From the NCBI GenBank assembly GCA_034670405.1, contig JAXDDX010000087.1:2035001-2099000 (forward strand): a stretch of DNA of 64,000 nt, read 5' to 3'. The notes below the pieces were generated by a model, which searched no databases, was not told where the DNA came from, and saw only the letters and a list, made by a program, of their open reading frames with translations. Below are positions 3,901-60,043 of this stretch, one piece after another. The translations under genes were made by a program, and so were the position numbers. Each line of letters starts with the position of its first letter. Position 1 is the first letter of the stretch. The DNA comes from Hoplostethus atlanticus. Its lineage: Eukaryota; Chordata; Actinopteri; Trachichthyiformes; Trachichthyidae.

Positions 3901-5591
3901 CCTTTGAAATCAATGAAAGCGTCTCCGCAAAGGCCAAGAGGAGGTATAGGGACAGAGTGGAGTCGCAGATGGAGCAGATGGAGCAGCGCGACACCAGACG
4001 CCTATGGCAGGGGCTACAGACTATAACAGACTACCAGGGCAGACCCCCCGCAATTGTGAGTGCCGACGCATCCCTAGCGGAGGACCTGAACTCATTTTAT
4101 GCACGGTTTGAGGCTAGCAACAACAGCGCTAGCTCGCCGGCTAACAACATCACCGTTAGCGCAGCCGGAGTGAGTTCTACCGCTGGGGATGAACACACAC
4201 TCTCTGTGACTGAGCACAGTGTGAGGAGGGCTCTGACGAGGGTGAACACCAGGAAAGCTGCTGGTCCGGATGGCATATCTGGGCGAGTACTGAAGACCTG
4301 TGCTAATCAGCTAGCTCCAGTGTTCACCACTATATTCAACATCTCCCTGGCTGAGTCTGTGGTCCCCGCCTGCTTCAAGAGATCCACTATTGTCCCTGTG
4401 CCCAAGAATGCTTCTCCAGCATGCTTGAATGACTACCGACCGGTGGCCCTCACCTCGGTGGTCATGAAATGCTTCGAGAGGCTGATAAAGGATTACATCT
4501 GCGCCTTCCTCCCTTGCTCCATGGACCCGCTGCAGTTTGCTTATCGTCCAAACAGATCCACGGATGATGCTGTCTCCCAGGTACTGCACACCACACTCTC
4601 TCATCTGGACAGCCGGAAGGGGGGCTATGTGAGACTGCTGTTCATTGATTATAGTTCAGCTTTCAATACCATAGTCCCCACCAGACTGGCTGGCAAGTTG
4701 ATTGAGCTGGGACTGAACACCCCCCTGTGTGCCTGGATCCTGGACTTCCTGACCGCCAGGCCCCAGGTGGTCAGGGTGGGTAGACACACCTCCAACCCCC
4801 TCACCCTGAACACAGGATCCCCCCAGGGTTGCGTCCTCAGCCCCCTACTGTACTCCCTGTACACACATGACTGTGTGGCCAGGTTCAGCTCCAACTCCAT
4901 CATTAAGTTTGCGGATGACACAGTGGTGGTGGGCCTGATCTCCGACAACGACGAGAAGGCCTACCTGGAGGAAGTTGCTGATCTGTCACTCTGGTGCCAG
5001 GACAACAGCCTCCTCTTGAATGTCACCAAAACTAATGGGACTACTGTGGAGAGGGTGAGCAGGTATAAATACCTGGGAGTCCACATCACAGAGGATCTGA
5101 CATGGTCCTCACACACAGACACTCTGGTGAGTAAGGCAAGGCAGCGCCTTTACCACCTCAGGCAACTGAGGAAATTTAAAGTCTCCCGGAGGATCCTTCA
5201 GTCCTTCTACTCTGGAGCTGTAGAGAGCATCCTGACAGGAAGCATCACTGCCTGGTTTGGCAACAGCTCCGCTCAGGATAGGAAGGCTCTGCAGAGAGTA
5301 GTGCGTTCGGCTGAACGCACTATTGGAACTACACTCCCCACCCTGCAGGACTTATACACCAGGAGGTGCAGAACCAGAGCCTGCAGGATCATGAAGGATC
5401 CTCACCACCCTAACAACGGACTGTTTCAGCTGCTGCGGTCAGGCAAGCGCCTCCGTAGTCATGCTGCCAAAACAGAGAGACTGAGACGGAGTTTCTTTCC
5501 TCAGGCCATCAGGACTGTGAACTCTGACCTCACCAGGGCCCCCACCAAGACACACACACTGCCCCTCTTATGCACACACACACTTAGGTAA
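3816..5591 (+). CDS. LINE reverse transcriptase (591-residue frame, truncated ORF2)
   Basis: The protein would copy LINE RNA into DNA at a nicked target. The first about 35 residues come from the upstream repeat, not the LINE. Visible reverse transcriptase landmarks are KAAGPDGI (about residue 147), [31 protein letters not shown], the [19 protein letters not shown] block, and the catalytic FADDT (about residue 368). A C-terminal region with [19 protein letters not shown] follows. There are no internal stops. After 'SLLLNVTKT' the frame jumps directly to '[17 protein letters not shown]', so about 20-25 residues seen in relatives appear deleted in frame. No endonuclease domain is present, so the copy is probably inactive on its own. 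The start codon is an artefact of the longest frame. Confidence 0.8.
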
Positions 5592-25078: not shown

Positions 25079-25925
25079 TCAATCATCACACATTTTCTTT
25101 GGAAAGACTGTGCATGCACTGCATAAATTAACCTCATGAATAAACCTGGAAGAAATTCTAAGGTCAGAGTCCCTACAAACTTGCCTTCCAGACCTGCAAA
25201 GCTCCTTAACCAGAACACAGCTCATTTGTGCATTACAATTTATATGGTTAAATGCCACAATGCTCAGGATCTTGCATAATGTGCCATCAGCTAACTCTGA
25301 GCCTTTTGTTATTTTCTGAGTGATAAAGTACACTGTCGACAAGAAAACGATCATAATATAGACATTGCTGTACCCTGACACCAAAAAGATCCTCAATAGC
25401 AAGCATGTGCCGTAATGGTATGTTCACTGGATGCGGATTGACAAAAACCCTAACATTCTCTGACAGTTGTGATGATTTAGCAGTCTCTGAACTGCTGTTC
25501 TGCATATCATAGAATAGTTCTTTGACGGTATTTTTGGCATTTTTCATGTAGTTGTCTGCCTTGTTTTTGAGATCTCTCCATTTGAGGAATCTGTTGACAA
25601 TCAGACCTTAGACATGTGTGGTTCCATTAAAGAACTTCGAGAGGGTGCCATTAAAAGACTCAAATGAAAATGTGGATGTGGCCCACAGAGGTCCCCAGTT
25701 TCTCACACTTGCAGAAATGTGTGTCACCAAGTGCACATTAAAAGTAATGTTTTCCCTGCCATACAACTTCTCAAACTCCATTACAAATTTCTTCAGTGCC
25801 TTCTCTGCATTGTTAATAACTAGTTGGATCTTTTCCTGAAGCAGAGTATAAATACCAAAAGCAAGAAGGAAAAGGATGGTTCCAGTATTTCTTGGAAAGA
25901 ACACCAGACAGCACTGGTAAAGCAT
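25079..25925 (-). pseudogene. CACTA/EnSpm-like transposase C-terminal fragment (DUF4218-like)
   Basis: Read on the minus strand, the frame at 25925-25608 contains NNAEKALKKFVMEFEKLYG, then FNVHLVTHISASVRNWGPLW and FSFESFNGTLSKFFNGT. This is the signature of the DUF4218 region at the C-terminal end of TNP2-type CACTA transposases. Further minus-strand frames at 25547-25287 and 25402-25079 appear to continue it in other frames. The catalytic N-terminal part is absent and the frames are disjointed, so this is a dead fragment. Confidence 0.55.
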
Positions 25926-26616
25926 AGAACAAAAGAAAACATCTTCATTCAGATGCTTTCCAATATTTTCGTTATTTTACAGAACATGGGACTCTAATTA
26001 ACTCTACTGGAGGCTGGATAGCTAGCAACTGCTTATCAATTATTTCAGTTTTTGTGCCAATGTACCATGGTTTATCATGTATAGTATAAAAGTATAAAAG
26101 TTTATTTGTGCATAGGAGATGCAGCCCCACCCGCCGCCATGCAAGTAGACAAGTGAAGGATTATGGCTTTGTCTTGAGCTGACCGGCCACCTAGGGTAGC
26201 TTTTGTTAGTTGGTGTTAATGTTCGTTCAGGTTATTATCTGCTGGCCCATTTTAACAACCTTTTTTAATGCCTTTTCTTTTGTTTGTTTTCCCATATATT
26301 TGTCCTTACAGATGTGTACAAAGATTTAATTGTCAAAAGAGATGCTTTCAAGAGAGGAGAAGACATCTGGAAGACAAATACACGGAGAGGGCAAGAAACT
26401 GCTGAGGCTGTGAAAGTATGTTTTGATTATTTTACCAATTCAGGAGCATCATTAATGCACTATTATTCTTAAAAAGACAAAATTTCACTAATCATGATTT
26501 GCCTGTTTGCTTTATATATAATGTGTTGTTTTCAGATCACAAGTGCATCCCAAAAGGCAGCTGCTATTGCAATGGGAGACAAACTTAAAAGAGTTCTTCA
26601 GACCCTACGCAGAAAA

Positions 26617-27001
26617 CTATGGAAGCCCAGAACCGCCATAATAAAAAATAAATAAATGAATAAATAAATGACTCAATAAATTAATTAATACTTAAATAAA
26701 TAAATATAAATTCAATAAAAATGCAAAAATAAATATATGTACACATAAATAAATAAATGTATAAATGAAATTAATGAATAAATGGGTATTTATGCATTTA
26801 TTTATTTCACTATTTATTTATTTCCTTAATCATTCATTTTTGTACTCATTTATTCCCCTATTTATTCATTTCCTTTAGCATTCATTTCTGTATTTATTCA
26901 TGACCATATTTATTTATTTCTTGATTTATTTTATTTCTGTATATATTTATTTCCAGATTTATTTATTTATTGATTTCTTCGTCCATATGATAATGAGGGG
27001 G
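26617..27001 (+). repeat. Left terminal inverted repeat of the HECT/integrase element
   Basis: The outer end is CTATGGAAGCCC and the inner end is CATATGATAATGAGGGGG. It pairs with 36959-37342. The HECT gene start codon follows 115 bases inside. Confidence 0.9.
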
Positions 27002-27115
27002 TGTGGCTTTCACATTCAGCCACAGCAATCAAGCCCAGAGTGGGTGAATAGGCTGAAGCGCAGCCAGGACAGCTAGCTAGTAGCTAGGCGCGTGCTGAGA
27101 ACACGGTAAGAGAAG

Positions 27116-30100
27116 ATGTCGGACTCGGAACGTCGTTCTGTTTCTCAGTTATTGAGAGAGGCAGCTACTCGTCTCGAAAACATGGAGCCATTGAGTAAGT
27201 ATCTTTGTCTGGAAATATATATCCGAAAGATTATTGCTTGTTGGTTGAAGATGATTTGATTTCTTTTGTATTTGTGGCGCACACAGCATCGAGTTCAACA
27301 GCTAGCAGTAGCAGTAGCAGTTCAGCTTCACGGGGCACACACCCAGTTGATGGTAAGCTAATGCAGGGTGATTGTAGTTTTATTTGTTTCAATTCGTTTT
27401 TATTTATGTTTTATTTACAACGCTACTTTATCTTTTACAACCACCAGATACTTGGGAGCTTCTTCTATTCACAAAAGCGTGGCCTGAATAATCCGCATAT
27501 TGCGAACGTTACCTAGTGGCCATTGCAATTGCTAAAATGAAAAAGGGCGCAAAAATGATTGTGTGCCTCTCTGCAGTTTGAATGAAAGTGGCTGTATTTT
27601 CCTCTTTCTAGCTCAAGTTTCTAGGCTATTTGCTGCTTATCAGCCGAGATCGAGGCGCCACCCACCACAACCCAGACCAAACATGTCCACATATACGCAC
27701 GCATTTTGCTGCCTCGGTCGGAAAGACCGGACTACTGTGCCAAGTAGGGTCGGCAAAGAAGAGCTACAGAGGGTGGGGTTGGGTGACAGGTGCATGACCT
27801 TTCGAGGTATGTCATTGCACAGCGCACATCATACTCAAAGTGTAGTTTAACCTAAGTGGAACATATAGGACATATCGATGATGAAGATCACAGAAATTCA
27901 GCATGTACGAATAAATAGGTTGTTAGAGGCACACAGGATGCCCAAGAGGTCGACGAGGCAAGTCAAGCAGGCGGACGCCTACAGACAAGCATGCACAGGC
28001 AGAGGGCAGCAGCTAAGAAAGTCTGCTACATTGGCTGATTCTAAAACCAGTCCCACCAGGATTTCGCGGAGTTTTTTTCTGATTATTGCGGCCCAAAATG
28101 ATTGAATTTGCAGCGGCTTTTATCAAAAGTTGCGATGCAATTTGTGATATTTTTCGTGTTATCTTGTGGTAAAACAACAGGAATTGATGAAAATTTCGGC
28201 CCCCCCTGTCAGGTCTGTCAGTGCTGCCAGTTTGACACAGACAAGGAGAGAGAGGTCCAGAGCGGAGAACGCACATCTAACTAGTCACCGGCCTGTTAGC
28301 AGCAAATCAACTTGAACAGTTTATAAAATGATTACGCTACACCGCGGCGCGGCCCGTCCAACCGGCCCAAAGACCCACCGGCCCACCGGGATTCGTCACG
28401 GTTGTCCCGATTGGCCACTCCGGCATTGTCCTTGTGTGTGTAACCATATCAAAGGCTCAGGATAACAAGAAAATAAATGGTGCAAATTGCATATTTAAAT
28501 AAAAAACAACCCCCCGAACACGTAGGAGTGTTGATGTGGAAGCATTGTGTCAATTTGACCGTTTTATGCGGAATATTGCGGGGTTTTGGCAAAATTTCAA
28601 GCTCTTGCAAGTATTGGCAATTAGTTGAACTTGCGTTAATTCTTGCGATCGCAACATCCTGGAGGGACTGTAAAACCAGACACTAAAATGCTCAGTCCTC
28701 CTGCCCTCACAAGCGCAGTCTCTTGAGGTTACTTCATAGTTCAGGCTCTGATTTAATGTATTGTTTTATTTTGCACAGGTAACCAAGAAAGTCCTGCAGA
28801 GTTTGTGGAGTTCATCCACAATGCCTTCCCCAAATTGAGAGATGGTGGGGGGTTTGAGCTTTTGAAAATCTCTGGAACCACAAAGAACCGTAACCTCATG
28901 CTCATTCCCTGCCCCAATCATGGTTACACCATAGGCTATTTGAAGGAGCCTGCAACCATGATTAATCATGCAACGCTTTACATCCACCCCCTCCAAAGAA
29001 ACTTGAGTTTCGACCATGTAAGACTAGATTTCTCATTTTATGCATGTTAATTAATATTTTTGGGATCATGTGATAACATTTACTAATCCATCATGTAAAT
29101 ATAGAGAGTGTTGCATTATATCCACAATAATTCCTGTAAAGGTTAACTGATTTGTTATAAATGTTAAATCCACTATTATCCAAATGTAAAGATTCCAATT
29201 TAAGTGTCATCCACCCACCTCCCAGTTGTTTAATTTTTATGTTGTCTTTACGGATAGGTACTGGATGTTGGGCCAAGTGGTCATACTGGACCCCAGGTGC
29301 CATGTCTGATTTGTGGAGAGGAATTTCTTTTTTCACAAATCAGAAGACACAATGAGGCATGTTCAAGGTACTGCTTTTAATGTAAAAACAACTGTTTGGG
29401 AAGTTGTTTCACAGCATGCTGGTTTTATTTATTTTATTAATTGAGAGACAATAATTTCTTCAGTGAGGATCCACTCATAATATATAATTCCTATCTTGCA
29501 AATCAACAGAGGTCTGCAGTAAATTCATAATTTGTATTATTTTTAGATGTGGAAGCCAGAGTGGGTTTTTTTAGAGACGCCAAACAGTTGTTCTGTCGTG
29601 GTTAAATGTTGCTGTATCCCTTTCGTTGTTTTATATAGAAAATCTAATAGACTATATAAGTACAACAATCCATTTAAAAAGAAGCCTGGGTGCTGGGTGT
29701 GGAGAGCCCTGAAATTATTTCCCATTATCAAAAGCCCTGTCCGGATGGGATTAGTATTGTCCGACAATGTTGGTAATGTCTTTTTGATCATAGCATTTCA
29801 GGGTTTTTAATTGTCGATCCTCACGAAATAAGACACTGGTATGACTATGATATTTCTCTGTTTAGATATAACTATAAGTTATAACAACTCTTCTCAAGTC
29901 AATCACAGGGTGAAAGGGAGAGTCAGGGTGCAGCTGTCCCTAGAAACAGTGTCCCAAGTGCCTCCACCTCTCAGCATCCTGTTGTAGATTTGGTGGAGGA
30001 GAGTCTGGAGACAGGTTCAGAAGAGGGTTTGTACTGAACACTAAACACATTAGTTTTAAGGGATGAGTCAGTTTGCACAACTTTTATTAGTATTTCTTCC

Positions 30101-33100
30101 AGTTTCAAATTCAGTAGTGTTTTTACATAATCAAATATTTAATAGAGTTACCTTTCATGACAAATGTCTTAACGGTGAATGCACTAACTCTCATTTGGTG
30201 ACATAAAGCTGTGGACATGTAATGTTGCATGCTGATGATTTTGTATTCTCTTTCAACAGCAAGTACATCTGACAAGGTGGCTCCTGTAGAGGAATGCACA
30301 GTTGATGGTAAGCTAATATGCAAAGAACGAATTATAAAGAGGATAGTAGGACATAGGTCACTTAGATGAAATGGGATCTAAGCATGATAGTGTACACCTC
30401 TGCATTTTGAATGAAAGTGGCAGTTAAGAATTAAGTAGTGCTGTGGCCATGTAATGCAACACTTTGATAATTTGTCTTGCCAATATCAACAGCAAATTCA
30501 TATGGCACTTATTCATCAATGGGTCCAGCATCTAGTTTTAATAGTATATTTTACACATCACAGATGATCCATTGAATGATTCATTTGCATTTTGTTTACA
30601 ACTAAGATGATCTTTTTAAGGTATGAATATATCTCTCTGAGTTATGTATGTTGCCATTCTTTATTTCTATTAAGCGTGGGTTACAGAACCAGACCCGGTC
30701 AAGGCAGCTGAAATCTTCACACAAAAGACACTGCATGCCAACCAGGACAAAGACCAGCTGATGTTCACCCTTAGTTTGAGGGATACCCCTGTAGAGAGGA
30801 ACAGGGCCATCATACAGTTTTATAAGAGGCCACGGGTGGAGTGGGCAAATCCACTGCATTGTAAACTGACCGGTAAAGATCTCAATTACTTCTCAAAATA
30901 CACTGGGCCATAAAGTATACTGATTGAATTCTAACATCTTAGATTTGAATATTGTGCTATTTTAGAATGTGTTAGTTATAGTTTCACTTAGACTCATTGT
31001 AGAGCAGCGTCCTCAGCAATGACATTCAATGGCTAGGTTTGGTAAATCGACTTATTTTAAATATTTAATTTTACAAGGTGACTCTGCCATTGGTGAGGGG
31101 GTGAGCAGACATGTGCTCTCCACAGTGATGGAATGTGTCCAATATGGGTTCCTTCTTGATGACGAGAAAGGTATGCATTTACTACAGGCTTGCCGTTTAT
31201 GTTAAATTGTTTTTGAGTTCTTTTGTTTCTGGCCAATCAAAATTAAATCTATTTCCTCTCAGGAGTGAAGACCTTGCTTTTCGAGGGAGAGCGGGACCAT
31301 CTCGTTCCCTCATCGTCACAGGCACTTGTGGAGAGTGACATGTTTGTGGTTGCTGGGCGCATGATTGGCCACTGTTTTTTAAATGGTGGCCCACGTCTTA
31401 ATGGTCTGAGCCCCGCAATCACACATGTTCTGTTTGGGGGAGAGCCAGAGATGGCAACAATAACAGTGTCCGACTGCGTGGACCAAGATGTCCGGGATGT
31501 CGTCCAATTGGTTTGGAGAAAAATATTTTTTTTATTTTTCTACGTCTTTAACAATATGTGTGTTTTATTGTGCTTTTCTGCATTATATTAACAAAGCTCA
31601 AGCTATTATTAACGACACAATATAATAGTACAATAATAAATACATGCATAACAATCCCTGGAACAATTGGGCAATAATTTACTGCATCAAACAGAGATGG
31701 TCCAGACACATGCGAGATTTACGTAGTCTTGTTTGTCTTCACCTTATGAAATAATTGTGTTTGTATTTGATCTTACTTGCTGTACTACATTCTAAATAAT
31801 TAAAGGTAAATTTACATTGTTGTCTCTGTTGATGTCATTGATCAGTTGGAAGGAACCCAGGACCTTTCTGAGGACCAGAAATCCCAGGTCCTCTCTGTCA
31901 GCCTGCCCTGGGACCTGCCTGGTGTCACATTGGATAACAGGTGGTGGCTGAAGGAGAAAATCCTTCTCTATGCTGTAAGTTTTTCTTTCTTTCTTTCTTC
32001 CTGTATTAGTGTGGAATAATTTATTGTATTGTATATTGTATTTCCATATACCCTGGATGCACGCTTCATTATCTTTACTGTATGGATTGTTAATGGAAGG
32101 CCTGCCTTGTGAAGAGACAGAGGAAAGTCCTTCACCCATGTTCCTGATCAGAAGCCTCTCACACAGAACAGATTGTTCAGACTAGCGGTTAACATGACCT
32201 TGTAGATGTTTAGAAACTAGCCCCCTTGTCCTCCCTTTGTTTTATAATCTCTGTTCAGACATTTCTCAGAGATCTGCAGACCCTACCTTCTGTGTGTACC
32301 TCTCTCCTGAGATCAGCTTTTTAAAAATTAAATATACTTAAGTAAATCACGACTTGACTTGACTGAATCTTCAGTTAAACATTTTTATTCAACAATTAGT
32401 ACAGAACATGTAAGGGAGGGTTTGTTGTGGAAATCAACAATATTGTCAGACTCATCCTCTCAGGGAAGTCAGAATCTGCCTCTGACAGAAACTACCTTCC
32501 CTAGATTGATTTTTGAGTTTGCAAGAATATTAGGCCATGAAAAAAGGGAAATGGGATGTTCCCATGCTTTGTGATTAAATAATTGGTACATAGTGGTTAC
32601 ATGGTTATAGTGATCGCCACTGATTCACCTGGCTTTTTAATGCATAGCTTTTGTTGCCTATCGAAACAAATAATCTGAAAAGTTTAAATCTGTTTGAAAC
32701 CATTACGTTACTTTCGATAGCCCATCAAAGTAGGTGCTTTTCTTTTGTAATATTTCACAGGTGCTCAGAAGGACGAAGATGCAGGTGAAACAAATCAGGA
32801 GAGGCCTGAAAGACACCGGTATCTTGGAGCTTTTCAGCTCCAGGCCTGACACTGCGCCGGTGTTATTTCCAAGGGCCTGTGACACAGAGATAACACCACA
32901 AGTAACTTGACACAGCATTACAGAGGATTATTTTTCTGTTTTATTATATAGCTTAGTATATAAACTTGGCCATGTTTCTAGTTCCAATGTTGATTTTGGT
33001 GACCGACAGCCTGCCCTATTACATTTGCAATGTTTGGCCCCATTTATAACTGTAAGATCATCATTTACACACAGCTCGCTGTACTTATAAAGTATATTGA

Positions 33101-33720
33101 TAACACATATTTAGTAAGAAGCTTAGCTGTTAATGTGAATGCAGGCAACTTAATTAGTGAATCCATTTATTTTCCAGATGATTCTGGACAAGATTATCTG
33201 GCCAAGGGAAGAGGACATTGATGAGGAAGTCCTCACCCTGGCGGACCTATGCAGAGCCCTAAGTTTCCTCCGGAAATTTATAGAAACTGGTATGACTATT
33301 TTTCCTGTGTTTTATGCACTAATAACCTTACCTTGAGTCTTTACAGGAACATAACATTTTTTGCAACAAATTATTTCCAACTTCATGTTTCATTACTCAA
33401 TAGGGGTGTTTTTTGGAGTATGTCTCTATGCAGTGTTCCATGTTGATGTGCTCTGGAGAAACAAGAGTGGCTAAACCCGTTTTTGGTTGGGGTCTTCTTT
33501 AGGTTCTACAGGGGTCCTGAAAAATCTGGTGACATTCTGGACTGGCTGGGATGTCCTTCCCCCACACCTGGAGGTGGAGGTTGTGGACTGTACCCTACCA
33601 CAATCCTCTACATGCTTTTTTACCTTGAGACTCTCCAAAAGTCCAGAAAATTATGAGGAGTTTAAACAAGGTATCATGGCAAGCATCTCCTCCTCCTACT
33701 CTGGGTTTGGGCAGTTGTGA
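27116..33720 (+). CDS. Transposon-encoded HECT-type E3 ubiquitin ligase with a CCHC zinc finger, 14 exons, 667 residues
   Basis: Exons: 27116-27194, 27287-27352, 27612-27806, 28779-29017, 29258-29367, 29899-30026, 30260-30307, 30675-30872, 31078-31170, 31263-31510, 31846-31974, 32761-32901, 33178-33289, 33503-33720. The total is 2004 bases with every phase matching. The N-terminal part is Ser-rich. A CLICGEEF...RRHNEAC segment (Cys209, Cys212, His224, Cys228) looks like a UBZ-type ubiquitin-binding or CCHC finger. From about residue 288 the sequence resembles the degenerate HECT domain of G2E3-like proteins: KDQLMFTLSLRDTPVERNRA, GDSAIGEGVSRHVLS, LFEGERDHLVPS and AGRMIGHC. The likely catalytic cysteine is Cys633 in QSSTCFFTLRLSKSPENYEEF, matching the HECT TCF pattern close to the C-terminus. 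A ligase could modify host or transposase proteins; this role is inference. The exon 6 acceptor was chosen to keep the frame. Confidence 0.75.
28048..28670. mobile_element. Non-autonomous DNA transposon (MITE) nested in HECT gene intron 3
   Basis: The ends CAGTCCCACCAGGATTTCGCG and ATCCTGGAGGGACTG are inverted repeats. The 6-base sequence TAAAAC flanks both sides as a target duplication. The interior has further inverted similarity (GCGG..AAAA type). There is no coding capacity. Confidence 0.75.
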
Positions 33721-33892
33721 GCCAGACAAAGTATGTTTTTTGTGATTTTGTTTTATTTGCTTTTGAGGTAACAATGTTACAGAAACAATTTTGGTAAATA
33801 AAAAAACATATTGGAATATTGCCTGTTTTACATTCACTGTGATGTATAGTGAGTGACCACAAAAATAAATCACATTTCCAGGTCTCTGGCTT

Positions 33893-36800
33893 TTAAAGCT
33901 CTCCTATTAAATCAGTTAATATGGTAACTGTCTCACTGTACACATGTAACACATTTGAAAAAGAACCCCGTGGATCTGGCAATCTCTGCACTTCCACTTC
34001 AGTCAGTGGCCGTGGAAGCTGAACCTCAGGGACTGTGACTCCTTCTTGATGGTGACCATTTGGACCGTCCCAGTCAATGCCATACTCCATGTCAACCTAA
34101 TATGAGATTTAACATTTAAATATGGTGAGCATATCATTTTAAAAGCATATACTAACCAGTAAAATAGAACATTTTTGAAGTATTTTGGTAATAGTGTGCT
34201 CCTACATTATGGCCAGTGAAAGGATATGCATGAAAATTAATAAACTACAACAGGTCATTTGAAATACTCTCTGATGTAACAATGTGATAAGGGGATGTAT
34301 ACACCTCATATAATGATTAGTTGATACATGAAGACAATGCTTGGCACTCTTGATTAGTGCGTCCAGCTATATTTATACTTCTCTAGAAATTTGGTGCGAT
34401 ATCCATTATGTGAGGTTAGAAGTTTACTTCCTACATTGTTTCAAGTACAAACCTGGAGGGGGTCTTGAGAACCCTCACACTGGTTCTGAGTCCACAGCTG
34501 AAGCGGTGACTGATTCCCCTCAGTGCGTAACCGATGGTGGTTCCAGCCATCTTTGAAAAACTGCAAGTGCCTCTGAAGTTGGGGAAGAGCGCTCCAGTGC
34601 AGTGCATACATGTGGATCTCTTCATCTGGGTTGAGAAGACCCTCCCTCTCCAGGTTGCAGAAATACGTATAGAAGAGGTCCAACACTCCCCCAAATACAT
34701 CCCTCCACAATCTTTCTATCCTGGATAGAGAGACAATGAGCATGTAAGCAGGAGGTAGAGTGCTAACAACTCTTTAACAACTCACTTATTTTGGTCCTGA
34801 AGCATGTTTAGTCAATCTTCTATTTAAGCTGCCTACCCCTGGAAACTTCTTTTTAGTTGGATGCTGCCAAGATCAATTGCTTGAGAACATACAAAATGAA
34901 TACAAAGTGATAATACCTCTGGTTGTGAGTACTTCTTCCAGTGAGATGAGAGTTCCTGTCTGGGCCTCTGGTGGACACCATGAAGTGTGCCACTTGAACA
35001 TTTTCTCCCCCTTTGTCAGACCTTACACGTGATGGCACTCCGTAGTTGTTGACGGCTTCAAGGAAGCTGCTCATCACAGTTGAGGCCCGGTTATTGGTAG
35101 CGGCATTAAGGAACACAATTAGACGGCTAAAGCCGTCAATGCCACCATGAACAACAAATCGCCACCTGTAATTTAAGAAATTGTGAAGTGTTAATGCAAT
35201 ATGCATGCCATCTCCTTTGTCTCTCGAATGTAAAAGAAAAAGAAGCTGCACTCTAATCAATGAAAATCTTGATTGATTTAGATTTGGCTTGAAAAGGTTG
35301 GTGACCACTGTGTAATTGTGTGTGCTCAAGTGTAGGTTATGTTTGGTTCTTAGATGGATTAACCACCAAAGTGTGTGAGCAACTAATGATGAGGATTGAT
35401 CTATCAAAATATGCCATTGTGTAATTTTTCATATCATTTTTTGTCTGAAGTGGTGTAGCATAACTTTCATGAAATGTAGGCTATATGTTATTTTCCATGT
35501 GATTATTTTTTGGATCCTGAAGTGGCTTTAGGTCAGGTAAAGAGGGGAAACTGATGAAGCTCCTAGGCCTTTGACATCATGGGCCTGCATACAAACAAAA
35601 GGTATTGTAAGGTTTTTGATTGCATTGAACTATATCGTTCACAAATGCACAGCCTTACCTTATAAGTTTATGGTTGCCATCTATATGCCACAAACTGTTG
35701 GGAGCTGGCACAGAATATCTTCTGCGTCTCAATGTCTGCAGCTGGAGAGTGCGCACCCTTACTCCTTCTGGGTCTATGCGATGCATAGATTCTTGCACTC
35801 TACGTCCTTTATAAAAGCAGGGTAAGCTACGTTTATTGTGGTTACTAAAAAGTTGTTTCAGAAAGAATGCATTTTGATGGACAAGCCTACATTATATAAC
35901 CTATATTATATAAAAGGGCATTGCTCTTCCCCATTGCACATACTAAAACAAAATCTACTAAGTAATGCCTACAGCAGAGCCATTGTCAACTCATTACTTA
36001 AACCACATAGATTACACACAAGTAATTCACTTACTTTGAATCCGTACACCTCGAGCGTTGAGATGGCCCAGCATCATTCGGTATCCTGTATTAGGATGAT
36101 GGCTGAGGATCTCGCGCACCATTGCATCCAACTCTCCATCCCCTATGCTGTTTAAGTCAGACACCCTTTTGAAAAAGATTACAGCAATGTGGTCAGTTGT
36201 AAACAAACTTTGTGAGCACTTCATTAACCAAGGAATGTAATTTATTGGCCCAGACTTGAGTTGTGTGTCACGGGCTGAACTTTTCCTTATGTGTTTATTA
36301 TTACATATTGTGTCGGCTATTTTGATTTACCATGACAGCTTTTATTTTAGGAAAGGAACAGAGGTGAAAGGTTTTGGGACGTAGCTAACTTACTCCGAGT
36401 AAACTAATTTACTCAATAGGTGGCGAGTTGCCAAAAGATCTGACTCACCGTATGCCATGCTCTGCCATTCGACGGTGGACGGTTCTCTCACCAACCCCAA
36501 AAAGAGCAGCAATGTTGCGGACATGCAAACCTGCTAATAAATAACTTTTCACAGCTTCCACGGGGAGTACGACACAGGGGCGTCCAACTAACGTGGCGTT
36601 ATCGGCATTTTGGAGCGAAAGATTCAGGCGATGAGCCACTTCTTCCAAATTGTTCAACACTTCAGGGTCAACCTCTGTGTTCGTTGATGCAAATAAGTGG
36701 AACAAATTGTTTGTCAAAGCATCCACACGAAACAGCAGGTAATCGGAACTGACATTTTCATTTTCAGCTATGTCAGCCAAGAGTCTTAAATCTCTGGCTA

Positions 36801-36939
36801 AATCTTGGCTGTACGCAGCCATTTCCAAATTTACTATACCAACGTAGTTAAACAACAGGTGAAGGTCTAGGAGCAAGGCCTGTGCAGTCGATCTAAGCAC
36901 TCTGGTATCGATCAACCAATGGAAATAAGGTGACACCAT
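33893..36939 (-). CDS. Transposon-encoded DDE integrase (rve-like), 6 exons, 496 residues
   Basis: Exons on the minus strand: 36939-36449, 36165-36035, 35806-35659, 35165-34917, 34720-34453, 34096-33893. They total 1491 bases and all phases agree. The N-terminal part has a helix-turn-helix-like segment, [19 protein letters not shown] (about residues 140-158), suited to binding transposon ends. The core has HIDGNHKLI (Asp250), [12 protein letters not shown] (Asp307) and [14 protein letters not shown] (Glu342), an RNase H-fold DDE triad with 34 residues between the last two. The [15 protein letters not shown] and [13 protein letters not shown] style is that of the fish integrase-core family seen in many uncharacterised proteins. 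The start codon lies only 20 bases inside the right inverted repeat, so the repeat probably holds the promoter. A downstream Met (MAAYSQDL, about residue 40) is an alternative start. Confidence 0.8.
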
Positions 36940-36958
36940 GACATAGTGTGATTGACAG

Positions 36959-37342
36959 CCCCCTCATTATCATATGGACCAAGAAATCAAGAAATAAATA
37001 AATCCGGAAATAAATATATACAGAAATAAATAAATGAATAAATAAAGAAATATGGTCATGAATAAATACAGAAATGAATGCTAAAGGAAATAAATAAATA
37101 GGGGAATAAATTAGTGCAAAAATGAATGATTAAGGAAATAAATAAATAGTGAAATAAATAAATGCATAAATACCCATTTATTCATTAATTTCATTTATAC
37201 ATTTATTTATTTATGTGTACATATATTTATTTTTGCATTTTTATTGAATTTATATTTATTTATTTAAGTATTAATTTATTTATTGAGTCATTTATTTATT
37301 CATTTATTTATTTTTTATTATGGCGGTTCTGGGCTTCCATAG
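36959..37342 (-). repeat. Right terminal inverted repeat of the HECT/integrase element
   Basis: Inverted counterpart of 26617-27001, ending GCGGTTCTGGGCTTCCATAG. A few point differences separate the arms, implying fairly recent insertion. Confidence 0.9.
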
Positions 37343-38799
37343 AAACACACAACTACTCTCACCTCCACTCCAATGTCAGATGATTCAGATAACACTGACA
37401 TTGACTTGTTTGAAAACACAGAGCAGAGACGAGCAAGGAAGAGAGCAGTAAGTAATGCTTTAATATCAATAAATCTCAAAGTAGCCTACATTTCCTAAAA
37501 GTAAGATATAGCACTGAAAAATTCTTATGGTCAAATTAAACACAGTACAAGCAAAGTAGCTTATGTTGCATTTGACCACATAGGTAATGCTTTAGCCTAG
37601 GGAACTACATTACCTGTCATAGACTTTAGTTGTAAACTTGGGAACCTTGAAGACATTACCCAACATTCAGCTAACTCTCATCTTAAATTAAGAGTAGACT
37701 GATAAGATCATGCACATTAACATTGCAGCTAATCATGGGTTATTGAAAATTACTGCAAAAAGAATGCATCATGCAACATACTCTATAACCCTCACAGGGT
37801 TGTTGCTTTATTGCCTCCAAACAATATGAGAGAAAATTACATTGTGTCTGAAACAGCATATGATTGAACTTAGTGTAAGCCATTGTGTTGAGCTTTATAA
37901 ATACACTTTCCCTTGTGAAATACAAAATATGTTTCTTCTAACCTTGTGTTCAGTGTAACATTTGTGTTTACAGGTTGTGCTGGATAGTGTTGATGAACAA
38001 GAGGATCAAAATAGAAATCGAGAAGATGATGAGCCTTTTGCAGAGGACATCCCCCAAAAACATTCATGTCCAGCTTGACGAGGATGTAGTCAAAGCTTTG
38101 AAAGGTAAATGGATAAATGTAATTTAATTTTTAAAATTGTTTTTTTTATAGTTTATCTTAACACAATACTCACATACTCATGTTTACATTGAGGGAGTTA
38201 TTGGTCACTATAATCATTCCTCATGTCCATACCAGTTGTAAAGAGATCCCTTCCTAATGCAATTCCAATGTAAGTCATGGGGGACAAAATTCTGTGTAAA
38301 AATATATTGTAAAGTTCAAGTTAAAGCTAATATGAAGTGTCACCAGTGTGTTAGACTAATCAAGTGGATATCTTCCAAAGTTAGTCTTTTTGAAAAGGTA
38401 TCTCTTCAGGGCCAGCCTGGAGAGGGGAAATGATTACAGCGACCAATAACGCTATAATCACAATAACATCAATGTACATATGGGCATGTGAGTATTGTTT
38501 AAAGACAGACTTGAAAAAATGTGATAATATCCTCTATGGCCTCGCCAAACCATGCAGTTGCAGGTACTTTATTATACTTTTGTCCACATTTACTAACAAC
38601 GGACAAATTTACACTGAAAATTTCTGCTCAACTTTACCATTGTATATTAGCATGGTAGTATTATCTCCTGTATTAAACTTTTTATGGTTGAATCAAACCT
38701 TTACCTACTATACCCAACTTGAACCTTGCCTTGATGTAAGTCTGAATTTGGTGCCTTAGCACAGCAAAATCAAGAAAAGAATAATACTAATGAATATAG

Positions 38800-39190
38800 C
38801 CGCAAGTGGCGATTTGCGGGTTCAAAACATTTTGTTACTGCAAACTGCATGCATAGAAGAAGTGATAGAAGAAGATAAATTCCACAAACAAATATATGCA
38901 CTTAACTTTATGTTTAAGTAAGCAAAATCGTGTTTTTGGGCCTTAATTACAGCGCTACCATCTGGCCGATTGGGCTCATGTTTCTTGGGAAGCATTTGCA
39001 CATCATTTCCAGTTATTGGGCCAAGTTTCATGGATTTAGCTCATTCCAGCTCACGGCAATTTGAGACGCGGCATAAGACAATAAATAATAGGTGGGAAAC
39101 AATATGGTTCTCCCCCTTCGGGGTTTGAACCCTAATAAACCAAGGTGAAAAATAATAGGGTTCTACCCCTTCGAGGTTTGAACCCTAAAT
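38800..39190. repeat. Interspersed repeat ending in tandem GGTTTGAACCCTAATAA units
   Basis: Contains the fish repeat block TGGGCCAAGTTTCATGGATTTAG and then two tail units of the form GTTCT(A/C)CCCCTTCG(G/A)GGTTTGAACCCTAA. The same double tail recurs at about 40738-40825, on the other side of the acidic gene. Confidence 0.6.
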
Positions 39191-39450
39191 ATACAAGTAG
39201 TGCAAGAAATAATAGCTTAGTGCAATTAATTTGTGCAATTTTGCAATTTGGTTTCAAAGTGTCACCTCTTCCAGCAGCATATTGGTGATGGATAGGTTTG
39301 TCAAGCACACTCATCTCAATGTTCAATCATTTTATGAATCAATGTCACACCACATGCAACTTGAGTTTTCATTCATTTACTATAAATAGCAAACATTAAA
39401 AACATCAAATCAAATGGAACACAAAACATCAAATAGATAATGGAAATGAA

Positions 39451-40339
39451 TCAATAGTTAAATATAAAGTCCAATTCAGAATACGTAGTCAGACATGTCC
39501 ATGGAGCGGTGTCTCTTAGAGAAGCGTTGTTTTCATCCTCCTCCTCCTCCTCCTCCTCCTCCTCCTCCCTGCTCCTCTTTCCACAGACTCTGGCCAGTCC
39601 AGAGCAGATGCTTCTGCTGGGTCCAGTCATGAGACTGGGGGACTTCCAGCTCACAACAGGGTTGTATGACTCCATGTCAGAGTCCAGATCAGACTCTAGG
39701 GGAGCTGGCTCCTCATCCTCATCTTCATTATCAGCATCATAGTTGAGGTAGAGAGGTGAAGAGGTGAAGATGGTATGATGGCAACTTGATGGAGCAACAG
39801 CCCCTAGCACATCTTCCTCCTCCTCCTCACTATTATCCTCCTCCTCCTCCTCACTGTAAGATGGTAAGATGATGTCAGGTGGGGTCAAACATTTTTCCAC
39901 TATCTCCTCCTCCTCCTCCTCCTCCTCACTGTAAGATGGTAAGATGATGTCAGGTGGGGTCAGATGTTTCTCCACTATCTCCTCCTCCTCCTCCTCTATT
40001 GTTGTTGACTCTGAGGATGAGTTTGATGGAGGGTTATCTTCATCGGCCACCTCAGGAGATTCATCTTCTACCTCATTATCAATCAATATGATCTGTACAT
40101 GGATGGTCACCACGGGACGTTCAACGTACCAGACTAAAAGAACAAAAAGAGAGTTAGTTCATCACCAGTGAAGACGTGGCTAGAGAGATTTTTCTGATAA
40201 ATGTCAGATAAACATCATCTCTTGATGGGCCACAGACACCCAGTTGTATTCTGATTTGTTTTGCCTCCTTTTGTTGTTAGTTTACTAAAAATGTTGAAAA
40301 CTCACCACACGGTGGATTTAATGAAAGGTTGGGGCTCAT
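39451..40339 (-). CDS. Two-exon acidic protein with internal repeats, 238 residues, unidentified
   Basis: Exon 1 is 40339-40306 (MSPNLSLNPPC, donor GTGAGT). Exon 2 is 40133-39451 after a TTCTTTTAG acceptor. The junction is in phase, making 717 bases. The protein is dominated by Glu/Asp runs and holds two tandem copies of IVEK(H/C)LTPPDIILPSYSEE (about residues 64 and 88). It then has a basic patch near GKRSREEEE and a hydrophobic aromatic tail ending SELDFIFNY. Such acidic proteins are often nuclear, but no family is recognised. The gene sits between two copies of the same repeat tail, so it may be a mobilised or captured gene. The (TCC)n tracts coding for Glu could also have grown by slippage. 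Confidence 0.45.
39537..39567. repeat. (TCC)n microsatellite coding poly-Glu on the minus strand
   Basis: About ten TCC units. Related TCC tracts lie at about 39813-39852, 39905-39928 and 39978-39995 in the same gene. Confidence 0.85.
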
Positions 40340-40737: not shown

Positions 40738-40825
40738 CCGTGTTCTACCCCTTCGGGGTTTGAACCCTAATAAACCGAGGTGAAAAACAATAGGGTTCTA
40801 CCCCTTCAGGGTTTGAACCCTAATA
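40738..40825. repeat. Second double-tail repeat GGTTTGAACCCTAATAA
   Basis: Two units joined by AACC(A/G)AGGTGAAAAA, matching about 39104-39187. Confidence 0.65.
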
Positions 40826-40879
40826 ATGATAGTAATGACAACAACAAAAATGCTGGAAGAGAGGGATAGATTAGAGGGG

Positions 40880-42465
40880 ACGTAGGGTGGGGGTCTGAAT
40901 GTGTGTATGTTTGTTGGGTGTATGTGAGTGATGCTTGTGTATGTGTATGTCAGATTAAAAATTTGTAGGGATCACGGTGTATGAGTAATGGCAGATATGT
41001 GTGTGTGAATGACAGCATGCATGTTTATTGTGGGTGGTAGACAGGCAAAAAAAGGTGTGATGAGTGACATCGGTGTGCAAATTAGGAATTAGGAGTATTG
41101 ATGAATGGATTCCAGATTACGTCAAAATCAACGGTTTGGTATTTGATGGAGGCAGATCATTTTTCCATTGATATGTATTCGATTAGTAGATTTTTCCAAA
41201 GTGTAATATTGAATGTGTTCCTTGATTTCCAGTTCATGAGGATAGTTTTCTTGGTGATGGTTAGGGCTATGAAGAGTATTCTACTGGATGTGTTGTTTAG
41301 GTTGATGATGTCTCCTAGTAAGCAGAGTGGAGGGGATAGTGGGATGTGGCAGCCCAGAAGAAGAGAGAGGTTGTCAGTGATGTCCTGCCAGAATTGTTTA
41401 ATGGGTGTGCAGTCCCATGTGGCATGCATGTAGCTGTCTGTAGTGTTTTGTGTGCAGTGCGGACAAATTTCGGAGTCTATAAAACCCATTTTAAACATCC
41501 TTTTCCCCGTGTAGTGAATAATCTTGTATTGTATGAGTTGTATGTTTGTGTTGGTGGACATAGAGAAGATGTTTTTGCAGATTTGGGCCCATAAGTCGGC
41601 ATTAGGGATGAGCTGTAGGTCTTGTTCCCATATTTTTGAAGGGATGGATATTGTTAGGTTGGACATAGAAATTATTATTAGATTTGGGATAGAAGTTGTT
41701 TTTTTTGTAGTGATATTGATCAGGTTTGATGTTAATGGGGGAACATCTAAGTTAGATGTTTTAATGTTAATTTTGGGCTGAATAGATGATTTGATCTGGA
41801 GAAATTCTAAAGTGATGCCAATGCCATACTTCTGGACTAAATGAGGGAATGAGACCAGAGTGTTATTATGGAAGATGTGGTTGAGTTGCGTGTTACCTTT
41901 ACTAATCCATGTTGAAAAGTTTAGTGGTTTTCTGTTCATTAAGAAGTCAGCATTGTTCCAGATAGGAGTGTGTTTGGTAGGTGAGATTGTGAGATTGAGA
42001 TTGTGTGTTAGTTATGATATTTCCACCAGGTTGTCAGATTTGTAGCTATGGTAGGGTTCTTGAAACAAGGATGGTGTGCAATGGAGCGGCTTATGAATGG
42101 TAAGTCTGAAATATGGATTTCTTTGCATAATGTTTGTTCTATATCTGTCCAGGAGTTGTCGGATTGATTGGGATTGGTCCATTTGTGAATGTATTGTAGT
42201 TGGTGGGCAAAGAAGTAATCGAGAAAGTTCGGTGCTTCCAGACCTCCTTCGGTTTTGGATTTTTGCAAAGTGGCTAGTTTGATTCTAGGTGTCTTGTTTT
42301 TCCAGTAGAATTTTGAGATGATGGAGTCTAGGGATTTGGCCCAGGATGGTGGGGGCTGGAGTGTAGTCTGAGATTTTAGAGAAAGTGTTTATGAGGCGGA
42401 TCATTTCGGGTAATGAAAAGGAAGGATTTTGCAGGTAAAGTAAAATGTCATCTGCATAAAGGCTG
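40880..42465 (-). mobile_element. 5'-truncated L1-type LINE (minus strand), degraded
   Basis: The minus strand begins in the catalytic motif region (SLYADDILLYLQNP at about 42460), then passes through frames at 42285, 42268-42008 (GGLEAPNFLDYFFAHQLQYI...W) and 41939-41157. The last contains the typical L1 C-terminal block MGFIDSEICPHCTQNTTDSY followed by HATWDCTPIKQFW. The order YADD, GGL..PN..Y and CPHC..D..H..W.C is that of L1/Tx1 ORF2 C-termini. Frame breaks and missing upstream domains show it is dead. Confidence 0.8.
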
Positions 42466-43073
42466 GTCTTGGCAAGGTCCTTGTCCTGTCCATGTCGCAG
42501 GAACACCTTCATAGCTCTGTGTATGTGGGGGATCCATCGAGTTCCCTTGACACTGCTGGGACTGCAGATGTCCACTCCAAGTTCTTGTCCGAGAACGTAG
42601 AGCTCTCGTTTCGACTTGCCACTGAAATGGTAGGTTTTCCAAATTCGATGCAGGAGATTGTAGACGACCGACACCTTAGGTTCCGTCTTCTGTAGGGTGA
42701 GTAGCCACAGCCCTTTGGTGCAACTTGCAAAGTGTATGGCAGAGGAGTGTGCACAAAAATGCGAAACAGAAGCATAAGCCACTGCAGCCAGGGACAGCTG
42801 CTTTTTGCTCAGGGATGACAGTGTAGCATTCATGACTGAGAAAAGACCAGATGGCAAATTGGTTTGCAGCGTCATTCCAGATTGTCGAACCTCCAACCTC
42901 TTTGAGAAGCCTTGCCAGTCAAAACTCCTGAACATTGCTTTTGTTGGCAGTGTCCACAGCATGGCTAAAACACAGCTACTACAAAGCCAGGACTTGAAAA
43001 GGAAAGCTGTTTGTCTACCACATAGTGGAGGATATGCCATCTTCCCTTTATTGCACGAAATAGAGTGAATCAC
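42466..43073 (-). pseudogene. hAT-type transposase-like fragment (ZNF862-like) joined to the L1 copy
   Basis: On the minus strand, the frame contains VVYNLLHRIWKTYHFSGKSK, then LGQELGVDICSPSSVKGTRW and IPHIHRAMKVFLRHG. These resemble the central part of hAT-derived ZNF862/KIAA1586-type proteins (a GTRW..H..RA motif). The upstream part of the 262-residue frame has no clear match. The frame then reads straight into the L1 YADD region at about 42465, so the L1 inserted here and created a chimeric frame. The hAT part is a fragment. Confidence 0.5.
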
Positions 43074-43196
43074 ATAATAATTTTTTTAATTATTATTTTA
43101 TTTTATTATTTTTTAGTGCAAATACAGTATAAAAGGGCAACTTAAAAAACAACAACAAACACTCTGGGCAGTGGGCTTGTTGTATTTTTTCAGACA

Positions 43197-49304: not shown

Positions 49305-49377
49305 ACCAGTTTAGCTCAGTTAGTAGAGCATCAGATTCTCAGGCTGAGGATTGTAGGTTTAAACCTCACATGGTGTG
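49305..49377 (+). pseudogene. tRNA-like sequence (decayed tRNA or tRNA-derived SINE head)
   Basis: The A box is nearly perfect (TAGCTCAGTTAGTAGAGC) and there is a B-box-like GGTTTAAACCTC at the right distance. The anticodon stem TCAGA/GCTGA around loop TTCTCAG mostly pairs, but the acceptor stem and T-stem have several mismatches. Not a functional tRNA as it stands. Confidence 0.6.
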
Positions 49378-55711: not shown

Positions 55712-55821
55712 TAGTGCATATACCAACAGCGTGTCATCAGTGCTTTTTATGGGTTTATGTTTTGTTGGAGAGTACTTTAATTGCAAATGTTTTTTCTTTT
55801 TTCTTTTTGCTGTTGTAAACC

Positions 55822-57237
55822 ATGAAAAGATCGTACAAATCAGTGACCGGTCGTAGAAATGCAGAGAGAAGCCAGTATGACTTATCCACTAATGATGATG
55901 ATGATGGTGAGGAGCAAGACTGTGGTCTTCAGGCTAGAAACCGGTTTGAGGATGACAGTGTAGATGATGACTTGCCGCAAGACTTTGATGAATTAGACAC
56001 AGCCACACAATGTAGCTTGTTGATAAAGTTGGTGCAGTATCGGACTAAAAAGTATAGTGAGATGTTTGATACACCCATCCTTTACAGCAAAGTACATGGA
56101 ACAGGGCTTGATTTTGATGATGAGGAAGAGGAGGACGATGAGCAGCTATCAGCTGAGAGCATGGACTATTGTACAGTACACACCCCGAATCAGTCAGGAC
56201 ATGTTTTTGAGCATAATAGCTTATCCGGCCAAACACCGAATGTGGCTCAAGAGATGACAGGGGGGAGTGGACCTTTTCAAACACGAAATATCCCACGGTT
56301 TAATGCTGTGGAAGTTAGACAGCCGATAGATTTGAGAAGCATATCTCTTGATAATTTAGAAGAAGTTCCAAATCTGATGAGACACAAGCTAACGGATGTG
56401 ATAACGCACTGTACAGAGAATGCTCCTGCAGGCAGTCTGTTAAATGTAGTGTTGCGTGGTCCCTCTCTCGCTAGCGATGTTCAAACAGTTTTAAAATCTG
56501 ACGATGACTATAATGCAGACTTGTTTTTAGAGCAGATAGCACAGGTGATGCAGAGTAATGACACATCCATGACAGATGACGAATTAGAATTTGTCGTTAC
56601 AGTCGCCCAGAACAAAAGTGGTGGAGGATATCGTTTGAAATTAGGGGCCATACCTTATGATGAGATAATACGTAAGAAAAGACCTTGTCTTTACAGCCCT
56701 CAAAACATAGGTAACAATCTGTGCTTCTCCACGTGTATTGCTCACCATCTAAGCTCAATGCGTGCGATACAAGCGAACGATATCATTGCAGAAATAATGT
56801 ACGAAGAGTTAGGGATTGTGGCTAGTACAAATGCCCGTGAGGAGATGGCTTATGCAGAGAAAATGCACAGAGAGTTGGGGTATACACCTGATCGAAAGAT
56901 TGGCTTTTCTGATGTCTCTAGATTCGAGAGGCATCTGAACGTGAAAATTCTAATATTCCACCACGTCCAATCAAGCAAAAAGCGGGAGTTGTATCAAACG
57001 AGCGACAAGCCCCACCCAGACACTATATGGTTGTATCTACACAATGAACACTACCACCTTATTGTGAATAAGACAAGATTTTTCGGGGCAAAGTATCTCT
57101 GCGAATACTGTTACACACCATGCAATTCAGTACTGGATCACAAATGTAAATTCCACTGTAACGTATGTCTAACAGGCTGTTACACACACCCAGGTCCAAC
57201 GATAAAATGTGACCAGTGTAGCCGTATATGTAGATAA
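55822..57237 (+). pseudogene. Polinton/adintovirus-type DNA polymerase B, N-terminal region, truncated (471 residues)
   Basis: One uninterrupted exon. An acidic N-terminal part (about residues 1-130) is followed by a globular region with NNLCFSTCIAHHLSS (about residue 294) and EHYHLIV (about residue 412). These could be the Cys and His of an OTU-like cysteine protease fold. A Cys/His-rich zinc region follows: YLCEYCYTPCNSVLDHKCKF, CNVCLTGC and IKCDQCSRIC. Alternating CxxC and HxC pairs of this kind precede the polymerase domain in Polinton/adintovirus-type PolB; the assignment is by pattern and not verified. The frame stops with TAA inside the zinc region. No exonuclease or polymerase motifs follow, and the downstream DNA is an inverted duplication then the tRNA array. 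It is therefore an inactive fragment of a virus-like element. Confidence 0.5.
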
Positions 57238-57808: not shown

Positions 57809-57879
57809 TGCATTGGCCGGGAATCGAACCCGGGCCTCCCGCGTGGCAGGCGAGAATTCTTCCACTGAACCACCAATGC
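57809..57879 (-). tRNA. tRNA-Gly (anticodon GCC), unit 1
   Basis: 71 bases beginning GCATTGGTGGTTCAGTGG, with anticodon loop CTGCCAC and T-loop GGTTCGATTCC. All stems pair, as in a canonical vertebrate tRNA-Gly-GCC. CCA is not encoded. Confidence 0.97.
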
Positions 57880-58528
57880 TGGGTCAAAGGGCACGTCTAC
57901 CCCTCAAAACGTGACTGAAAGGCGGTAGACACATTGCGACTTTTGAGCTGAGGCAGTAGCGCACACAAGAATGGTGATAAAAGACCCACGGAATTCCTGT
58001 AGTTGACTCTATCTCATTTGTTTTACTGTGTACAGTTGATCTAGTTGAGCAAATAATGCCGTTAAAGAATGTGCAGCAAAGGACCAGGGTACAATAGCCA
58101 CCTGCGTGGATCTGCATACAGCAATACCATTGACCATGCAGAGCGGTTAGGGAAGAGAGGACGCAGGAGGACGGGTTGCAGAGGACGTAGGAGGTCAAGG
58201 TGCACTCCACTGACGTCAGGGCGCAGAGGACTCATAAATATTGCAGAAGTTTACTTGTTGATGGAGAATACAACAGTCTACAGTGCACAGGCAGTTGGAA
58301 AAATCATCAGCTGCGCATCTTAACTGGTCAAGGCCAACCACACAGGCCATTTCAAATTGCAAGCGTGAGTCTCACTGTTCACTTTCAGATTGGGTCTCTT
58401 CAAGATGGCTTGGGAAGAAGGTTCTCCACCAGCACTCTTGTGACATCACGGCCCTTCCGGAACTCTGGTTACACGGTATATTCAAATGGTGTCCAAGTAC
58501 ACCGAAGGTTATAAGTTCAAGAAAGCAA

Positions 58529-58611
58529 TGTCAGAAGTGGGATTTGAACCCACGCCTCCAGGGGAGACTGCGACCTTAACGCAGCGCCTTAGACCGCTCG
58601 GCCATCCTGAC
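58529..58611 (-). tRNA. tRNA-Leu (anticodon AAG), unit 1
   Basis: 83 bases beginning GTCAGGATGGCCGAGCGG, with a long variable arm as in class II tRNAs and T-loop GGTTCAAATCC. The anticodon loop is TTAAGGT, giving AAG (read as IAG), on a body otherwise like tRNA-Leu-CAG. Confidence 0.95.
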
Positions 58612-58890
58612 TTAATAACGCTTCCCCAACTCTCGCTAAACGGCACATTCAGATGGCGTCCAAGTACATCAAAGGTTATCAGCTTGAGAAATCATCAATT
58701 TGCACATGGATGAAAACTTCAACCGTCCTGGGGTTGCCTTCACCGTCGACAACCAAGTTGTTCTTCTGTACAGCTCTCCAATCCTGAGTGATTGTGTCAT
58801 TCATGGCACCTTCTTACCACTTTTCAAAAACCGCACCGCTGTTGGCTCTACGGCTCGTGCTTCAGGTAAACCGGACGTTTGAAAGATGAC

Positions 58891-58961
58891 TGCATTGGCC
58901 GGGAATCGAACCCGGGCCTCCCGCGTGGCAGGCGAGAATTCTTCCACTGAACCACCAATGC
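58891..58961 (-). tRNA. tRNA-Gly (anticodon GCC), unit 2
   Basis: Identical to the unit 1 copy. Confidence 0.97.
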
Positions 58962-59610
58962 TGGGTCAAAGGGCACGTCTACCCCTCAAAACGTGACTGA
59001 AAGGCGGTAGACACATTGCGACTTTTGAGCTGAGGCAGTAGCGCACACAAGAATGGTGATAAAAGACCCACGGAATTCCTGTAGTTGACTCTATCTCATT
59101 TGTTTTACTGTGTACAGTTGATCTAGTTGAGCAAATAATGCCGTTAAAGAATGTGCAGCAAAGGACCAGGGTACAATAGCCACCTGCGTGGATCTGCATA
59201 CAGCAATACCATTGACCATGCAGAGCGGTTAGGGAAGAGAGGACGCAGGAGGACGGGTTGCAGAGGACGTAGGAGGTCAAGGTGCACTCCACTGACGTCA
59301 GGGCGCAGAGGACTCATAAATATTGCAGAAGTTTACTTGTTGATGGAGAATACAACAGTCTACAGTGCACAGGCAGTTGGAAAAATCATCAGCTGCGCAT
59401 CTTAACTGGTCAAGGCCAACCACACAGGCCATTTCAAATTGCAAGCGTGAGTCTCACTGTTCACTTTCAGATTGGGTCTCTTCAAGATGGCTTGGGAAGA
59501 AGGTTCTCCACCAGCACTCTTGTGACATCACGGCCCTTCCGGAACTCTGGTTACACGGTATATTCAAATGGTGTCCAAGTACACCGAAGGTTATAAGTTC
59601 AAGAAAGCAA

Positions 59611-59693
59611 TGTCAGAAGTGGGATTTGAACCCACGCCTCCAGGGGAGACTGCGACCTGAACGCAGCGCCTTAGACCGCTCGGCCATCCTGAC
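59611..59693 (-). tRNA. tRNA-Leu (anticodon CAG), unit 2
   Basis: Same body as unit 1 but the anticodon loop is TTCAGGT, giving CAG. Confidence 0.97.
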
Positions 59694-59972: not shown

Positions 59973-60043
59973 TGCATTGGCCGGGAATCGAACCCGGGCC
60001 TCCCGCGTGGCAGGCGAGAATTCTTCCACTGAACCACCAATGC
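59973..60043 (-). tRNA. tRNA-Gly (anticodon GCC), unit 3
   Basis: Identical to the unit 1 copy, one period further on. Confidence 0.97.

Follow-up and report, generated by a model that had tools for sequence, protein, structure and literature searches.

We found that a 10.7-kb segment of the 64-kb stretch of DNA analysed here (hereafter, the window), lying between the outer ends of two inverted repeats (26617..37342, given without strand), is likely to be a full-length, autonomous-looking IS3EU/GingerRoot DNA transposon in which a second gene encodes a HECT-type E3 ubiquitin ligase. This one unit combines long inverted repeats and TATGG..CCATA tips with two reading frames, one of the DDE transposase type and the other of the HECT/CCHC type. 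The HECT gene is what looks new in this element, whereas the transposon superfamily itself is published.

Results

Inverted Repeats and Insertion Site

The left terminal inverted repeat (26617..27001, + strand, 385 bp) carries the tip (C)TATGG, and the right one (36959..37342, − strand, 384 bp) carries CCATA(G), so that TATGG..CCATA tips are found at both ends of the element. In the alignment of the two arms, 374 of 385 columns were identical, 10 were mismatched and one was a gap. Both repeats contain an A/T-rich array with a period of about 16 and 48 bp. A search for the 18 tip bases, allowing three mismatches at most, returned two places in the 64-kb window, namely both ends of the element, as compared with a mean of 0.02 in 100 shuffles. 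As single-stranded DNA, the left repeat surpassed 99 out of 100 shuffles in predicted folding (z = −2.43), a modest effect. We also considered an inner element enclosing just the HECT gene and, as allowed for in the preliminary description, a smaller element whose repeats merely flank a captured region. Neither was supported within the window, where seven inner inverted repeats were detected between the arms, the longest being 28 nt at 71% complementarity, with none longer to bound a smaller element.

At the borders of the element, ..CGCAGAAAAC is followed by TATGG at the left, and CCATA is followed by GAAACACACAACT.. at the right. If the tips are read as TATGG..CCATA, the candidate target duplication is GAAAAC at the left (26612..26617), and its right-hand copy would have lost one A (GAAAC, 37342..37346). 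If the tips are read as CTATGG..CCATAG, the duplication is a perfect 3-bp AAA (26614-26616 and 37343-37345), which is as possible as the imperfect 6-bp duplication. Both readings yield an identical empty site, in which the left frame (..DKLKRVLQTLRRK) continues into the right frame (HTTTLTSTPMSDDSDNTDIDLFENTEQRRARKRA), and the element therefore seems to have interrupted an exon that belongs to a different gene or transposon.

Arrangement and Structure of the Two Genes

The HECT gene (27116..33720, + strand, 14 exons, 667 aa) and the DDE transposase gene (33893..36939, − strand, six exons, 496 aa) lie tail to tail with 172 bp between their stop codons, and their start codons are located 114 and 19 bases inward of the repeats, respectively. 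Facing AATAAA signals, whose actual use is predicted, lie at 33752..33802 (+ strand at 33797 and − strand at 33757-33752), and the 3′ tails of both transcripts would therefore overlap. Since the starts lie close to the repeats, the stops are 172 bp apart and the 3′ tails would overlap, the two genes fill the element.

The exons of the HECT gene, joined into an open frame, are 27116-27194, 27287-27352, 27612-27806, 28779-29017, 29258-29367, 29899-30026, 30260-30307 (exons 1-7), 30675-30872, 31078-31170, 31263-31510, 31846-31974, 32761-32901, 33178-33289 and 33503-33720 (exons 8-14), all on the + strand. Those of the transposase gene, joined likewise, are 36939-36449, 36165-36035, 35806-35659, 35165-34917, 34720-34453 and 34096-33893 in reading order on the − strand. 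The exons of both genes were chosen to keep the frames open, and splicing was predicted from the sequence. All 18 introns have GT..AG borders, 13 of 13 in the HECT gene and 5 of 5 in the transposase gene. The HECT frame has no in-frame stop, whereas its two alternative frames on that strand contain 33 and 34, and the transposase frame has none, as compared with 30 and 28, a contrast that overstates the case because the exons were selected for open frames. In 1000 dinucleotide shuffles, the HECT coding sequence gave a mean of 27.9 stops (minimum 14) and the transposase coding sequence a mean of 24.0 stops (minimum 10); these shuffles bound chance and are no proof of splicing. The length, domain content and splice signals of both predicted gene models are in accord.

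The preliminary description had claimed 385-bp near-identical inverted repeats, two convergent genes with 14 and 6 exons forming complete frames of 667 and 496 residues, a HECT TCF cysteine, a CCHC finger and a D250/D307/E342 triad. The arms of 385 and 384 bp, the two stop-free frames and the 18 GT..AG introns bear out the first two of these claims, and the three motifs were all found again, as detailed below.

Transposase Protein

The Pfam integrase core rva_4 matched residues 238-421 of the transposase at 7.3e-87, above the Pfam cut-off, whereas rve and HTH_21 remained below their cut-offs. The NCBIfam models of the IS481 transposase (61.9 bits, 6.8e-17) and the IS3 transposase (51.8 bits, 7e-14) scored far under their cut-offs of 224 and 160, respectively. 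The predicted catalytic triad consists of D250, D307 and E342, with 56 and 34 residues between them, and is the triad named in the preliminary description. The transposase lacks an HHCC finger, since its only cysteines are at positions 122, 361 and 421, and one of them (Cys122) lies ahead of D250. Against PDB sequences, the transposase gave five matches up to E 1, the best at 0.0027, and four of the five are named integrase or Pol.

Searches of viral, phage and prokaryote collections gave the following results. In viral_contigs, the transposase and the HECT protein each gave one pattern match, none confirmed, and a 20-base tip of the element had no match; in genome_contigs, the transposase gave 23 pattern matches, none of which was confirmed; and the transposase region had no match in phages. 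These misses say little about fish, because the collections hold viruses, phages and prokaryotes.

HECT Protein

The HECT protein matched the Pfam HECT family at 8.8e-08, its score of 32.6 bits exceeding the cut-off of 23.9. Residues 592-665, corresponding to the C-lobe only, gave the best stretch, and a second stretch was counted, without position. The predicted catalytic cysteine is Cys633, within S-T-C-F (Thr-Cys-Phe), in agreement with the TCF cysteine reported earlier, and exon 14 (33503..33720, + strand) bears most of the C-lobe including this residue. The CCHC motif, C209-x2-C212-x11-H224-x3-C228, is encoded by exon 5 (29258..29367, + strand); the finger is thus present as claimed, though its score against Pfam zf-C2HC_2 was 15.1 bits, under the cut-off of 27. 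Its spacing corresponds to that of UBZ4 (ubiquitin-binding UBZ) fingers, which serves as a lead only.

When residues 289-558, the expected N-lobe, were scanned alone, no Pfam family matched, and E2 binding by the HECT protein is therefore uncertain. The whole HECT protein had no match to PDB sequences up to E 1. The HECT part alone gave one match, to the AREL1 HECT domain at E 1.2, and the alignment places Cys633 on the T-C-F cysteine of AREL1. Structure prediction was carried out on two single-exon pieces, without alignment, giving mean pLDDT values of 55.8 and 54.2 (low confidence). With a limit of E 10, the folded C-lobe exon gave 81 matches to PDB structures, all of them above 0.001, and no HECT protein was found among the best 50 of the 81. 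This low-confidence model carries little weight, yet it lends no support to the HECT call. The predicted protein, as judged from its sequence, may be assigned to the HECT-type E3 ubiquitin ligases, with a predicted activity.

A duplication of exon 2 and exon 7 of the HECT gene, suspected from similar exon ends, was dropped, as only intronic similarity aligned, extending over 41 bp by alignment (64 nt at 75% in the repeat scan).

Relation to Known Transposons and HECT Ligases

Passages of PMC10045372 describe complete IS3EU families as always ending in TA..TA, with target duplications that are usually 6 bp long, and IS3EU and GingerRoot as having no HHCC motif and a first catalytic D located 100-300 residues from the N-terminus. 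The present element is alike in its TA..TA tips, its IS3/IS481-like DDE core and the absence of an HHCC finger, and D250 falls within the 100-300 residue range. It differs in that a HECT second gene is unmentioned in those passages of PMC10045372 and that its target duplication is not a clean 6 bp. According to excerpts of PMC12730594, TET-bearing IS3EU elements of rust fungi have TAYGG..CCRTA ends, and all TET-bearing IS3EU carry a TET/JBP gene between transposase and alpha-kinase genes of opposite orientation. The fungal elements described in these excerpts (PMC12730594) and the one described here share the tips, and in both a second gene is oriented against the transposase gene, but here this gene encodes a HECT protein and not an alpha-kinase. 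No TET/JBP gene was detected when both predicted proteins of the element were scanned with Pfam.

In the portions of PMC2836005 used here, OTU and Ulp1 domains are reported in Ginger1 and other transposons, and the ubiquitin pathway is suggested to be involved in transposition. Ginger1, as presented in those portions (PMC2836005), and the element both link an integrase-like transposase with the ubiquitin/SUMO pathway; in Ginger1, however, there is an HHCC-type finger, and OTU or Ulp1 proteases are fused to the transposase, whereas in the element the ligase has a gene of its own and HHCC is absent. Membership of the element in Ginger1 was rejected, as its transposase has no HHCC (H2C2) finger ahead of the DDE core. 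In comparison with cellular HECT E3 ligases, of which AREL1 is the nearest PDB sequence, the T-C-F cysteine of the C-lobe and a C-terminal G-F-G motif are common to both, while the N-lobe here is not recognised by Pfam alone and the gene lies inside a transposon.

On account of the TATGG..CCATA tips, the IS3/IS481-like core with D250, the absence of HHCC and the opposite second gene, we file the element under IS3EU/GingerRoot, a placement by features compared with published descriptions. In our view, the element very likely represents an IS3EU-type transposon to which both genes belong.

Other Features of the Window

The flanks of the element at 26536-26616 and 37343-37447 (+ strand) resemble the two parts of a single exon that the element has interrupted; there is an acceptor-like site at the left and a donor-like site at the right. 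About 0.6 kb to the left of the element, a piece at 25611-25976 (− strand) shows weak similarity to DUF4218 (E 0.0037, below the cut-off); this piece presumably hints at a CACTA-type element, possibly the tail of its transposase.

A tandem array of 11 tRNA genes, repeating every 1082 bp, is located at 57809-63289 (− strand), in which tRNA-Gly(GCC) alternates with tRNA-Leu (four CAG and one AAG). A lone weak Rfam tRNA match (49305-49375, + strand; 31.3 against 29 bits) was absent from the ARAGORN output. A 593-codon frame at 3810-5591 (+ strand) matched RVT_1 (2.8e-29) and then ALKBH8_N, as in a LINE-like element, and frames of 284 and 266 codons at 41160-43085 (− strand), the first with sub-threshold zf-RVT, possibly represent a decayed LINE. 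Two further frames had no Pfam match: one of 472 codons with a Cys-rich end (55819-57237, + strand; searched up to E 0.1) and one of 235 codons that is Ser-rich as well as very acidic and contains a 75-bp tandem duplication (39454-40158, − strand). A 96-bp repeat built of two similar halves occurs at 39107-39202 and 40742-40837, its copies being 89% identical.

Discussion

The assignment to IS3EU is supported by the uniqueness of the repeats in the window, the open frames, the rva_4 and HECT matches and the agreement with published traits, and also by the lack of a smaller long inverted repeat inside and the continuation of the left frame into the right one in the empty site. It is weakened by the single copy, the imperfect 6-bp duplication and the IS481 and IS3 scores far below the cut-offs. 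The HECT assignment, in turn, is weakened because the N-lobe was unrecognised alone, the whole protein had no PDB match up to E 1 and the C-lobe model gave no HECT match among the best 50 of 81. The preliminary view that one mobile element carries both genes remains the best reading, given the starts near the repeats, the tail-to-tail genes and the lack of a smaller bounding repeat. Its description as apparently intact holds in the sense of open frames and both ends, while activity is predicted only. The element is known from a single copy, in the 64-kb window, and it is from this copy that we infer that the element would be mobile, that its two genes would be lastingly paired and that the HECT protein would act as a ligase.

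By analogy with the family, the N-terminal part of the transposase would bind the repeated A/T-rich units in the ends, and the enzyme would cut at the tips and insert the element into a staggered cut. Less surely, the HECT protein may serve the element as an accessory factor. The CCHC finger could recruit it to ubiquitinated proteins at the break, where its HECT lobe might tag either host proteins of repair or restriction or, for turnover, the transposase. We lean towards the HECT gene being a regular working gene of the element, whereas it is doubtful that its protein does the proposed tagging job at the break.

A less favoured but serious alternative is that the HECT gene was captured by chance in one or a few copies and has no role in transposition. 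HECT genes of such a kind are said to be scattered in fish, which would fit a capture, as would the single copy from which the element is known. Capture would also fit the fungal IS3EU elements with other second genes, since second genes may be exchanged if alpha-kinase and TET/JBP genes are held instead, as excerpts of PMC12730594 describe. However, the HECT frame is open across 14 exons, and the gene has no insert borders of its own; because its start is 114 bases away from the left repeat and its end is turned towards that of the transposase gene, with 172 bp between the stops, it is not an added insert with such borders.

Arm-to-arm differences are no clock in DNA transposons. For this reason, the 10 differing sites and one gap between the repeat arms argue little for the idea that the element is an old dead copy, intact only in appearance, which we consider unlikely; the single copy and the possible loss of one base from the target duplication would agree with it, but two long stop-free frames and 18 of 18 GT..AG introns would be unexpected after long decay. 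It is highly improbable that the arms belong to an A/T-rich repeat of another, unrelated kind, with the two genes being either host neighbours or pieces from different elements. Although the repeats are mostly simple A/T-rich arrays, their tips are complex sequence unique to both ends and match the IS3EU pattern TAYGG..CCRTA given in excerpts of PMC12730594, around a transposase of the matching kind.

The element is thus probably an IS3EU transposon whose passenger gene encodes an E3 ligase. The preliminary description knew of no described two-gene element with these ends; as regards the HECT passenger, the literature covered here does not contradict this, but the ends, the core and the lack of HHCC fit the published IS3EU/GingerRoot. 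Among the matches listed from open-licence literature (titles and abstract beginnings), there was no transposon with a HECT ligase, although Repbase may hold such elements. The word HECT had no match in the transposon papers PMC10045372, PMC12730594, PMC9587614 and PMC2836005; PMC4255032 and PMC8550402 are, by their excerpts, on subjects other than HECT-bearing transposons; and a 2010 paper on animal HECT proteins (PMC2837046) gave no match for the terms asked.

A HECT ligase has the opposite activity to the ubiquitin/SUMO proteases of Ginger1, and a transposon-borne E3 ligase would make the role of the ubiquitin pathway in transposition, as suggested in portions of PMC2836005, directly testable. 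It is conceivable, at somewhat less than even chances, that a lineage of IS3EU transposons has kept a HECT ligase as a regular second gene, writing ubiquitin marks where its elements jump, and that it is a possible source of the multi-copy HECT genes of fish. The element might also explain some uncharacterised fish HECT proteins as transposon genes.
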